In this document: in pieces, positions 60,532 to 64,000 of the stretch
Layout of the letters: each line of letters begins with the position of its first letter
Position numbering within the stretch: the stretch's first letter is position 1
Source: Candidatus Methanomethylophilaceae archaeon
GTDB taxonomy: Archaea; Thermoplasmatota; Thermoplasmata; Methanomassiliicoccales; Methanomethylophilaceae
Assembly: GCA_017540825.1 (NCBI GenBank)
Contig: JAFYAH010000049.1
Location: 1 to 64,000 of the forward strand
DNA: 64,000 nucleotides
Reading direction: 5' to 3'
The notes under the pieces: model-generated
What the model was told of the DNA's origin: nothing
Seen by the model: the letters and a program-made list of their open reading frames with translations, nothing else
The model's database searches: none
Program-made: the position numbers and the translations under genes

Positions 60532-61497
60532 GTGGTCAACGTGAGGCCCGACATGCATCTAACCGACATCAGACAGGTGCTCGATTTCCCAGAGCTCATA
60601 GAGAAGGGCCTCGCTATAAAAGCCCCGATGAGGCATGAATCGAGGGAAGCGTGCGTGTTCGCCTCAGGCCCCGCATCGGTTTCGGCGCAGTTCGCCTCGG
60701 ACGTGTCTGCTAGGACCCCTTTTCGCGTGATCCCGGCCTTGGACGAGCGCGTTCCCGGATGGCTTGCCGAAGGGAAGGATGCGATAGTGGTCTCGTACTC
60801 GGGCGATGAGGCGAGGATGATAGAGGCGTACAGGACCCTGAAGGGTCGCGGATGCGCAGTCCACTGCATAACGTCCGGGGGGACCCTCGGGGACATGTGC
60901 AGGGAAGACGGGAACGACCTGGTGAGGATGCCTGCCGGAATGACCCCGCGCAGCGCCGTAGGGATGGAGATAGGCGCCATCGCATCGCTTCTGAGATCCG
61001 CCGGCGCGCCTTTCGTCTATGACTCGCTGAAGAGGACGACAGACGCCCTGAAGGAGCGCCGCGACAGGCAGGCCGAGGACACAGAGGAAGCGTCTCGCAT
61101 CGCAGGCCTGCTCTACGGCAAGACCCCGGCCATCTACTCTCCCATAGACTCCATAGCGGCGGCCAGAAGGTGGAAGTACTCGCTGGACGAGGATTCCGGG
61201 TCGCTGTCGATCTTCGGAGAGATGCCGGACTTCGACCATAACGAGATAGTTGGATGGGCGGACCTCGGCGCTCAGACGAAGGACGTCAGGCTCGTCCTCC
61301 TGAGGATGGCCACAGGGATCCCGGAATACGAGTACAACATCCGCTGCATGGAAGAGGTCCTGCACGAATACAGACGCGACATCACGGTCATAGACTATCG
61401 CGACAAGGAAATGGTCCTTGCCGAGCTCGAGGCGATGCTGTTCGGCGACATGGTGTCGCTCGAGATTAGAAAACGCAGGGAGGCCGGAGGCCCGTGA
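60532..61497 (+). CDS. phosphoglucose/phosphomannose isomerase-like protein, copy 1 (motif-poor)
   Basis: The 321-residue double-SIS protein belongs to the bifunctional PGI/PMI family. It keeps the second-half signature FDHNEIVGW (about 232-240) with the catalytic-type His, and SYSGD near 85. It has lost the Gly-rich phosphate site (ASGPASV in place of G-x-G-G-S) and the N-E-N-x-K motif (DEDSG). Its C-terminus lacks the G-x-D-P element. It overlaps copy 2 by 4 bases. The start is GTG 60532 or GTG 60541; ATG 60553 is possible. It may work only with copy 2. Confidence 0.75.
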   Translation: MVNVRPDMHLTDIRQVLDFPELIEKGLAIKAPMRHESREACVFASGPASVSAQFASDVSARTPFRVIPALDERVPGWLAEGKDAIVVSYSGDEARMIEAYRTLKGRGCAVHCITSGGTLGDMCREDGNDLVRMPAGMTPRSAVGMEIGAIASLLRSAGAPFVYDSLKRTTDALKERRDRQAEDTEEASRIAGLLYGKTPAIYSPIDSIAAARRWKYSLDEDSGSLSIFGEMPDFDHNEIVGWADLGAQTKDVRLVLLRMATGIPEYEYNIRCMEEVLHEYRRDITVIDYRDKEMVLAELEAMLFGDMVSLEIRKRREAGGP

Positions 61498-62519
61498 CGA
61501 AGAAGAGCGTGATGGAGCAGGTCCGCAGCTTCCCGGACGACCTCAGGAAGGCGCTGAGATGGAAGCCTGACCCGATCGAGTGCGACAGCGTCATCCTGTG
61601 CGGGATGGGGGGATCGGCCATCAGCGGAGCCATTGCGGCGGACCTGCTGATGGAAAGCTCCAGGATACCGCTGGTGACGGTGAGGGACTTCTCGATCCCA
61701 GCATGGGCGGGGGAGAGGACGCTTGCGATCGTGTCCAGCTACTCGGGGAACACCCTGGAGAGCCTGATGATGTACGATGCCGCGAGAAGGTCCGGATGCC
61801 AAATGATCGCCATAACATCCGGTGGGAAGCTCAAGGCGAAGAGCGTCGAGGACGGAGTCCCCGTCAGGTCCCTTCCCGAAGAGATGCAGCCTCGCCATTC
61901 CATCGGGTTCATGATAGGGTACACGATGTCGATACTGGAAGCATGCGGGTGCCGGTGCCCTGACATGGACAGGGTGCTGGACTCGCTGTCCGCGTACAGG
62001 GAGCACCTGGAGTCGGAAGAGGGCGCCAGAATGGTGGACGATATGGCCGAGTCCATAATGGGGACGGTCCCAGCCATAACCTGCTACAGCTCGCTGCAGT
62101 CTGTAGCTTTCAGATGGAAGTCGCAGCTGAACGAGAACTCGAAGATGGTTGCGTTCCGCGACATATCCTCCGACCTCAACGACGAGGCCATCGAGAGCGT
62201 GTCCGCAGCCGACAGGAACACCATAAGGGTGCTGGCTGTCGGAAACGCAGACAGCAAGCTGCTCTCCTTCGACACCGGTCCCGCCGACGTCGTCGACAGC
62301 ACGTTCCGCTCCATCATGCTCGGCGACTACATATCTATCAGGATCGCCGAGAAGCGCGGCATCGACCCGGAGTCGGTAGCCCCGATCAAGAGCCTCAAAG
62401 AGAAGCTGTCGAGGATGCGATCGCGTCTCGGGACGACGAATGATCCTATCAGCGATCCCCTTCGACGCTCTCTTTCGCGTCGGAAGCCATGGCCAGGAAC
62501 CTCTCGGAGCGCTCCTTAG
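61494..62519 (+). CDS. phosphoglucose/phosphomannose isomerase-like protein, copy 2
   Basis: The 341-codon frame has the substrate motifs of the PGI/PMI family: CGMGGSAISG (about 36-45), SYSGNTLES (about 82-90), the catalytic-type Glu in LNENSK and the C-terminal LGDYIS...GIDPESV. In place of the H-N-E-I-V-G-W element it has NDEAIES, so the usual histidine is missing. It starts at GTG 61494. Homology ends near 62425; the last 30 codons run antisense to the mutase gene and end on TAG. It probably interconverts fructose-6-phosphate with glucose- or mannose-6-phosphate, possibly as a heterodimer with copy 1. Confidence 0.82.
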   Translation: MTKKSVMEQVRSFPDDLRKALRWKPDPIECDSVILCGMGGSAISGAIAADLLMESSRIPLVTVRDFSIPAWAGERTLAIVSSYSGNTLESLMMYDAARRSGCQMIAITSGGKLKAKSVEDGVPVRSLPEEMQPRHSIGFMIGYTMSILEACGCRCPDMDRVLDSLSAYREHLESEEGARMVDDMAESIMGTVPAITCYSSLQSVAFRWKSQLNENSKMVAFRDISSDLNDEAIESVSAADRNTIRVLAVGNADSKLLSFDTGPADVVDSTFRSIMLGDYISIRIAEKRGIDPESVAPIKSLKEKLSRMRSRLGTTNDPISDPLRRSLSRRKPWPGTSRSAP

Positions 62520-63813
62520 CGACTTTTTCGTCCCTTGACTCGGAATAGACGCGGAACTTGGGCTCGGTTCCCGACGGACGCAGGAGCACCCAGCCGTCGT
62601 CGTAGTCTATGCGGAGGCCGTCTTTCTGATTGAGCCTGCCGCCCTCGCAGCGACGAGCAATCTCCTTTATAACGGCACCCTTCAGGTCGTCCGGGCATTC
62701 GACCGCTGCCTTGATGGTATAGAACCTGGGAAGGGAGTCCACCTGCTCGTCCAGGGATCCGCCGGACGCGACGGCCTCCAGCATCTTCGCGGCGGACATT
62801 GCCCCGTCGCGACAGAACTGATGGTCTGCGAAGATCAGCCCGCCATTCTCCTCTCCGCCGAAAATCGATCCGCCTTCGATCATCCTGCGCGCCACGACAG
62901 GCGACCCCACGGCGGTGTACGCCACATTCCCTCCGACGGACTTGACGGCCTCCTCGACGACGCACGAGGTGGCGACCGTCGTGACGACCTCCCCGCCGCC
63001 GTTCCTCTTCACAGCGGACCGGCCGAGGATGGCGAGCGACAGGTCGCCTGGGACGAACCTGCCAGAGCCTGTGACGAACACGCACCTGTCCGCGTCGCCG
63101 TCGTGCGCTATCCCAAGATCGCTGCCGGTCTCTACGACCAAGCGCTTGAGGTCTTCGAGGTTGCTCTCCGTGGGCTCCGAGTAATGGCCTGGGAACCTCC
63201 CGTCCTGGGAGGCGTTGATGGCGACGGCCCTGACCCCCAGCCTCTTCATCAGAAGCGGAGTCGTCTGCGATGCGGCGCCGTTAGAGCAGTCCAGACAGAC
63301 CTTGAGGCCGGCCTCTCTGACAGCGCGGACGTCGACGTTCCTCACGACTGCATCGACGTAGGCTTCTCCTGCATCCGATACGCGCCTGACAGAGCCGACT
63401 CCGTCCCATCCTGGGCAGGCTATCTCCGACTCGTAGGCGTCCTCTATGGCGGCCTCCTCCTCGTGGGAGCATTCCGTCCCGTCGGAGGAGACGCATTTGA
63501 TCCCGTTGAACTCGGGAGGGTTGTGGGACGCGGTTATCATCACTCCCGCCACCACGTCCGGGTGCGTCTTGACGTAGTACTGGAGAGCCGGCGTCGGAAC
63601 CATGCCCAGGTCGGCTACGTCCGCGCCCATCGACAGAAGCCCGGCCTCCACGGCGCAGGAGACCATGTCGGCAGAGGTCCTCGTGTCCTTGGCAACCGCT
63701 ATCGTCCCTGGGCCGAGAACCTTGGCGATGGATTTTCCGACCTTCAGCGCGAGCTCCGCGGTCATGTAGCCGTTGACTACTCCGCGTATGCCGTTGGTTC
63801 CGAACATCTTCAT
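62449..63813 (-). CDS. glmM: phosphoglucosamine/phosphomannomutase
   Basis: The 454-residue alpha-D-phosphohexomutase has MFGTNGIRG at the N-terminus, the phosphoserine loop TASHNPPEFNG (about 95-105), the metal site HDGDADRC (about 239-246), ENGGLI and the phosphate loop RPSGTEPKFRVY. It moves a phosphate between C6 and C1 of glucosamine, mannose or glucose. Archaeal members are often bifunctional, so the precise substrate is open. ATG 63813 lies about 26 bases after a TATA-like box; the frame extends upstream to 63951 without conserved sequence. Confidence 0.9.
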   Translation of the reverse strand: MKMFGTNGIRGVVNGYMTAELALKVGKSIAKVLGPGTIAVAKDTRTSADMVSCAVEAGLLSMGADVADLGMVPTPALQYYVKTHPDVVAGVMITASHNPPEFNGIKCVSSDGTECSHEEEAAIEDAYESEIACPGWDGVGSVRRVSDAGEAYVDAVVRNVDVRAVREAGLKVCLDCSNGAASQTTPLLMKRLGVRAVAINASQDGRFPGHYSEPTESNLEDLKRLVVETGSDLGIAHDGDADRCVFVTGSGRFVPGDLSLAILGRSAVKRNGGGEVVTTVATSCVVEEAVKSVGGNVAYTAVGSPVVARRMIEGGSIFGGEENGGLIFADHQFCRDGAMSAAKMLEAVASGGSLDEQVDSLPRFYTIKAAVECPDDLKGAVIKEIARRCEGGRLNQKDGLRIDYDDGWVLLRPSGTEPKFRVYSESRDEKVAKERSERFLAMASDAKESVEGDR

Positions 63814-63834
63814 GGAGGACGGACAGAGAAGAGC

Positions 63835-63844
63835 ACATAATAAA
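63835..63844 (-). promoter_or_regulatory. TATA-like box of the phosphohexomutase gene
   Basis: On the minus strand TTTATTATG is centred about 26 bases before ATG 63813. The remaining 155 bases to the end of the window show no gene that I can support. Confidence 0.5.
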
Positions 63845-64000
63845 GGATGCTGAAGACTTCGAAAAAGGACAGAAGGCGACGCGTCCGGCTTAAACCCGAA
63901 GGCCGTCAGCACGTCATAACGCAAAGGCTTCGCAGGACGGGCTAGATGCATCCTAGGCTGAGCCTAAAGAGAAAGACGAGGGGTCTCCCCCTGGTTTTCA

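Follow-up and report, generated by a model that had tools for sequence, protein, structure and literature searches.

Two overlapping genes of the window (the whole stretch of 64,000 nucleotides analysed here, part of a 2.37-Mb draft genome, G000) encode tandem paralogues, A and B, of the archaeal phosphoglucose/phosphomannose isomerase (PGI/PMI) family, and the catalytic residues of this family are divided between them. The best explanation, which is considered quite probable, is that A and B form a heterodimer with one composite active site, so that probably neither would be active without the other. As judged from the sequences, this putative enzyme would act as a phosphoglucose isomerase and probably also as a phosphomannose isomerase.

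Organisation of the locus

Gene A (60532-61497, forward strand), which would encode the His-donor subunit, is an open reading frame of 321 amino acids with a GTG start, although its true start may be other than GTG 60532, as the ATG at 60553 fits the homologues better. Gene B (61494-62519, forward strand; GTG start, 341 amino acids) is the paralogue without the catalytic His and would encode the substrate-binding subunit carrying Glu and Lys. The stop codon of A and the start codon of B share four base pairs (GTGA, 61494-61497), and a Shine-Dalgarno-like GGGAGG (61478-61483) lies within the 3' end of A, the whole coupling region occupying 61478-61497 of the forward strand. The gene overlap suggests translational coupling of A and B. 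In most of the pair loci, the stop codon of A likewise overlaps or abuts the start codon of B, with a GGAGG-like motif, so that balanced translation of the two proteins is favoured.

The neighbouring gene on the reverse strand (62449-63951) encodes a phosphoglucosamine mutase, GlmM (TIGR03990, 533 bits, above the cut-off), which is not a part of the enzyme. It adjoins the pair in the window and in 19 of the 22 other pair loci, a context that would fit the supply of fructose-6-phosphate to amino-sugar synthesis. The last 25 or so codons of B (62430-62519) lie outside the region homologous to the family and overlap the 3' end of glmM in antiparallel orientation; this C-terminal extension is probably a read-through tail that followed the loss of the original stop codon.

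Family membership and fold

Both proteins match PF10432 (A, 76.3 bits; B, 76.7 bits) above the gathering cut-off of 24.5, and both match TIGR02128, the archaeal bifunctional PGI/PMI (111.4 and 187.9 bits, respectively), below the equivalog cut-off of 213.9. Two overlapping copies of this family are therefore present, as the initial annotation had proposed. In sequence searches, B matched the PGI/PMI of P. aerophilum (1tzb; phmmer, 9e-13), and no match to 1tzb was obtained for A. Single-chain AlphaFold models of A (pLDDT 91.9) and B (pLDDT 87.5) both had 1tzb as the top PDB match, with a TM-score of 0.72-0.76 for A, and the double-SIS fold of 1tzb is present in both models (TM 0.6-0.76).

The complete catalytic set (the GGS loop, Thr92, Arg135, Glu203, His219 and Lys298; numbering here and below is that of 1tzb, unless a residue of a particular gene is named) is found in neither chain and is complete only in the sum of A and B: A is without the loop, Thr92 and Lys298, and B is without His219. 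Since the residues are not all in one chain and the equivalog cut-off is missed, neither A nor B is to be classified as a PGI/PMI in its own right.

Catalytic residues of subunits A and B

The His element of A, PDFDHNEIVGW (residues 232-242; 61225-61257, forward strand), contains His236 (codon 61237-61239), which corresponds to His219. His219 and Asn220 are invariant in all 24 tandem A proteins and in all 55 proteins of the A-lineage described below. The phosphate loop of A (residues 44-48; 60661-60675, forward strand) is degenerate, GMGGS being replaced by ASGPA. Gly47 is retained in one of 24 tandem A and one of 55 A-lineage proteins (G010), versus 70 of 71 single-copy enzymes. Thr92 and the C-terminal segment with Lys298 are also absent from the A of the window; the lack of that segment had been overlooked in the initial annotation. 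The initial annotation, which described A as keeping HNEIVGW and losing GGS and the NENxK motif, was right on these points, but the loss of the catalytic Glu that it implied was not borne out: alignment places Glu220 of A (61189-61191, forward strand; DEDSG for NENSK) at Glu203. Glu is found at this position in five of the 24 A copies, the others having Gln, Lys, Asp, Ser, Thr, Asn, Gly or a gap. The A of the window also retains Arg135 and Ser87/89 beside Glu203, and these residues count against a composite site.

The losses of B are of the opposite kind. It carries the phosphate loop GMGGS (Gly46-Gly47-Ser48; 61602-61616, forward strand), found in 23 of 23 B proteins, and NENSK (62130-62144, forward strand) with the putative catalytic base Glu214, equivalent to Glu203, which is present in 23/23 B and 71/71 single-copy enzymes. 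Lys302 (62397-62399, forward strand) corresponds to the catalytic Lys298, which is retained in 23/23 B and 0/24 A. SSYSGNT, Ser89, Thr92 and Arg135 are also present in the B of the window. At the site of the lost His and Asn, the alignment places Asp230-Glu231 (62181-62186, forward strand), with SDLNDEA for the family motif PExNHNx. Thus, the motifs assigned at first reading to B (GMGGS, SYSGNT and NENSK kept, the His element lost) agree with its alignment to 1tzb. A His at 219 was found in only one of 23 B proteins (G020, followed by Cys), which also counts against a composite site, the others having Tyr, Cys, Ser, Ala, Val, Asp or Ile.

Next to Arg135, residue 135 of B itself (column 136 in the numbering of P. 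aerophilum; 61896-61898) is His in 15, Tyr in seven and Phe in one of the 23 tandem B proteins. This column is Ala in 96% of the single-copy enzymes of the order, and the change to an aromatic residue or His is specific to B. It might be proposed from this that A and B are separate homodimers of shifted specificity, in which the residue at 136 has replaced the His of B; such an arrangement is very unlikely, given that an AA dimer without the phosphate loop, Lys298 and, mostly, Glu would lack the known chemistry, and that dispersed His-less B copies are without the change at 136 (PRSA, PRCA, PRNA).

Complementarity among the pairs

Reference residues were defined as those at least 93% conserved among 71 single-copy enzymes. 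Gly46, Gly47, Thr92, Pro134, Arg135, Glu203, Asn204 and Lys298 are retained in 100% of B and in 0-33% of A, and a wider set, additionally including Gly44, Ser48, Ser89, Glu94, Ala281 and Pro288, is kept in B (83-100%) and eroded in A (0-58%). Conversely, His219 and Asn220 are retained in 100% of A, and in 4% and 9% of B, respectively. Conserved in both are the Lys77 column (Pro in the single-copy enzymes), Ser87, Tyr88, Gly90, Gly116, Pro129, Arg196 and the Trp at 197. Of the 15 residues invariant among 19 A proteins, seven belong to the His element, which is 11 residues long (p about 3e-8), and the 60 residues around the His site contain not one of the 33 that are invariant among 18 B proteins (p about 0.001). 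From this clustering, the split of the motifs is not due to chance. Complementary and conserved losses of catalytic residues were found in 23 tandem pairs, so they are not a quirk of one genome; with 23 independent pairs, sequencing error was rejected too.

The disappearance of nearly all substrate residues from A would also be expected if B were the enzyme and A a dead allosteric or scaffold partner of the prozyme type, its His being conserved for structure. There is a precedent in deoxyhypusine synthase of trypanosomatids, whose activity is raised 3000-fold by a paralogue that is itself catalytically dead (PMC3663545). This alternative is considered unlikely: A retains exactly the catalytic His element (55/55) and B loses exactly that element, and the repeated loss of His from B is not predicted for a purely structural partner.

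Ordinary decay after duplication, with A becoming a pseudogene and B drifting, might account for the faster evolution of A than of B and for the A of G011 (L065), whose divergence is extreme (a branch of 2.4 changes per site). That protein has nevertheless kept the HN element. With dN/dS values of 0.17-0.31 for A, decay is already contradicted by purifying selection on this gene; the reading frames of A are open in nearly all genomes, and the invariant His element and the conserved gene order and coupling also speak against it, making it hardly credible. The values for B are 0.09-0.41, so this gene too is under purifying selection, and a pair of pseudogenes was rejected on the dN/dS of the two genes.

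Distribution

Among 60 relatives searched, 22 genomes of the genus besides that of the window were found to have the order A-then-B, and a further A, cut by the contig end, was found in G017. The close relatives are metagenome-assembled genomes of Methanomassiliicoccales / Candidatus Methanomethylophilaceae, several of them from rumen or colon. Two to three copies of the gene are common in Methanomethylophilaceae. Outside the family, about 110 genomes of the class with a match have one copy each, except for one genome in which the gene is cut between contigs. The split pattern was never seen in the single-copy enzymes elsewhere in the class, which have both His (50/50) and Glu (50/50), and none of 21 single-copy enzymes from other families of the order is without His. 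His-less single-copy homologues, which had been named at the outset as possible counter-evidence, were thus not found in either set, and the prediction of a heterodimer with a composite site, made before these comparisons, is supported by them. A biased choice of the single-copy enzymes was rejected as an explanation, as the HMM search used does not require the His.

In the pair-bearing genomes searched, classical PGI (PF00342), cupin PGI (PF06560) and type I PMI (PF01238) were absent from every one, and control genomes were matched. Redundancy with another PGI was rejected for these genomes. Two genomes, G026 and G011, have one extra copy of the single type beside the pair, which counts against the composite-site reading. 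Some members of the genus (G065, G068, G069, G071, G074, G028, G029 and G026) carry, instead of the pair or in addition to it, otherwise intact single-copy proteins that form a separate clade with GMGAS for GMGGS (L200, L201, L197, L198, L203, L068, L067 and L037). Five other genomes of the genus (G001, G002, G003, G008 and G024), some of which are incomplete drafts, had only weak SIS similarity to the PGI/PMI family and no other PGI family was found in them.

An additional TIGR02128 match in the genome of the window, on contig C39 (L003, 1198-2301), was rejected as a PGI. It is one open reading frame in which a GmhA-like SIS domain is joined to a HAD phosphatase domain, and it may represent an archaeal fusion of a heptose-phosphate isomerase with a phosphatase.

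Phylogeny and the repeated loss of His

In the trees, A forms one clade (support 100/99), as does tandem B (n=23; 99/97). Together with unlinked copies from other genera, A makes up an A-lineage of 55 members, in which Gly47 is lost in 54 and Lys298 in most, while Glu203 is still present in the unlinked copies, G078 excepted. A second, unlinked B-type clade exists beside tandem B, and His219 has been lost in five of its genomes: G121 (Tyr), G066 (Tyr), G101 (Pro), G078 (Arg) and G092 (Arg). All five also hold an A-lineage copy. The losses in G066 and G101 may represent one common event. In G078, A has shrunk to little beyond the His element and B is without His; the two are fully complementary and lie on separate contigs, so physical linkage of A and B is not required.

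Whole-tree parsimony gave six changes, which correspond to about five losses, that on the stem of tandem B included, and one regain. The His is lost in 27 of 64 non-A proteins of A-bearing genomes versus 0 of 90 proteins of genomes without A (n=154; Fisher p 9e-13, which ignores relatedness). As A-bearing genomes account for a share of 0.39 of the tree length, all five losses would fall there by chance with a probability of about 0.009, a moderate value. B-type copies thus appear to have lost the His on at least five independent occasions, each time in a genome that also contains A. These losses could stem from relaxed selection after duplication, although such relaxation would not be expected to leave all the other active-site residues of B untouched. 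The broader proposal, that of a heteromeric PGI, an isomerase of glycolysis and gluconeogenesis, with its Glu/His/Lys triad and substrate site split between paralogues, arising family-wide in Methanomethylophilaceae with at least five recurrent His losses from two B lineages, is regarded as fairly likely.

Possible mechanism and comparison with known enzymes

The composite-site heterodimer might have arisen as follows. In a homodimeric ancestor, each subunit would have given the ring-opening His to the site of its partner; in 1tzb, His219 presumably crosses the dimer interface. After duplication, B would have retained the full substrate site (the phosphate loop, Thr92, Arg135, the base Glu203 and Lys298), and the site of A would have decayed, with the fold and the His element being kept and the latter inserted into the site of B. 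The His element of B, useful only to the dead site of A, could have decayed next. The resulting AB dimer would possess one complete active site, made of the loop, Arg, Glu and Lys of B and the His of A, and the reciprocal site would be dead.

In conventional PGI, the His required to open the ring comes from the dimer partner (PMC8354745), and by analogy A is predicted to donate its His to the site of B. Conventional PGI (PF00342), unlike AB, is a homodimer, and its family is absent from the pair-bearing genomes searched. The enzyme of P. aerophilum (1tzb; TIGR02128, PF10432) shares the fold and domain family, and A and B jointly hold every one of its catalytic residues; in the known enzymes of that type, however, all of them are in one polypeptide, whereas here they are divided between two paralogues. 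The isomerase domain of GlmS has, like A and B, a SIS-SIS fold and a Glu/His/Lys triad, which is Glu488/His504/Lys603 in its isomerisation reaction (PMC9272926), with the Glu and His spaced by 16 residues, the same as Glu203 and His219. GlmS differs in being an aminotransferase with a single type of subunit. The closest analogue in kind, although an unrelated enzyme, is the DHSc/DHSp deoxyhypusine synthase, in which duplicated paralogues form a heteromer with one dead subunit and half of the sites working (PMC3663545, PMC7581365). There, one subunit is dead, whereas here the losses of catalytic residues affect A and B alike, are reciprocal, and have happened repeatedly within a single family.

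The literature searched, most subscription journals being outside its coverage, yielded no description of a heteromeric PGI, and the AB enzyme, if true, would be of a sort absent from that literature. It would also provide a natural series of replicates for the transition from a homodimer to an obligate heterodimer, as one archaeal lineage still contains intact ancestors with a single copy, unlinked pairs that are half decayed and coupled pairs that are fully complementary. The idea of a ratchet, in which a residue donated by the partner is followed by reciprocal decay, would then become directly testable. Metabolic models of gut methanogens would also be led astray if both proteins were automatically labelled as a bifunctional PGI/PMI.
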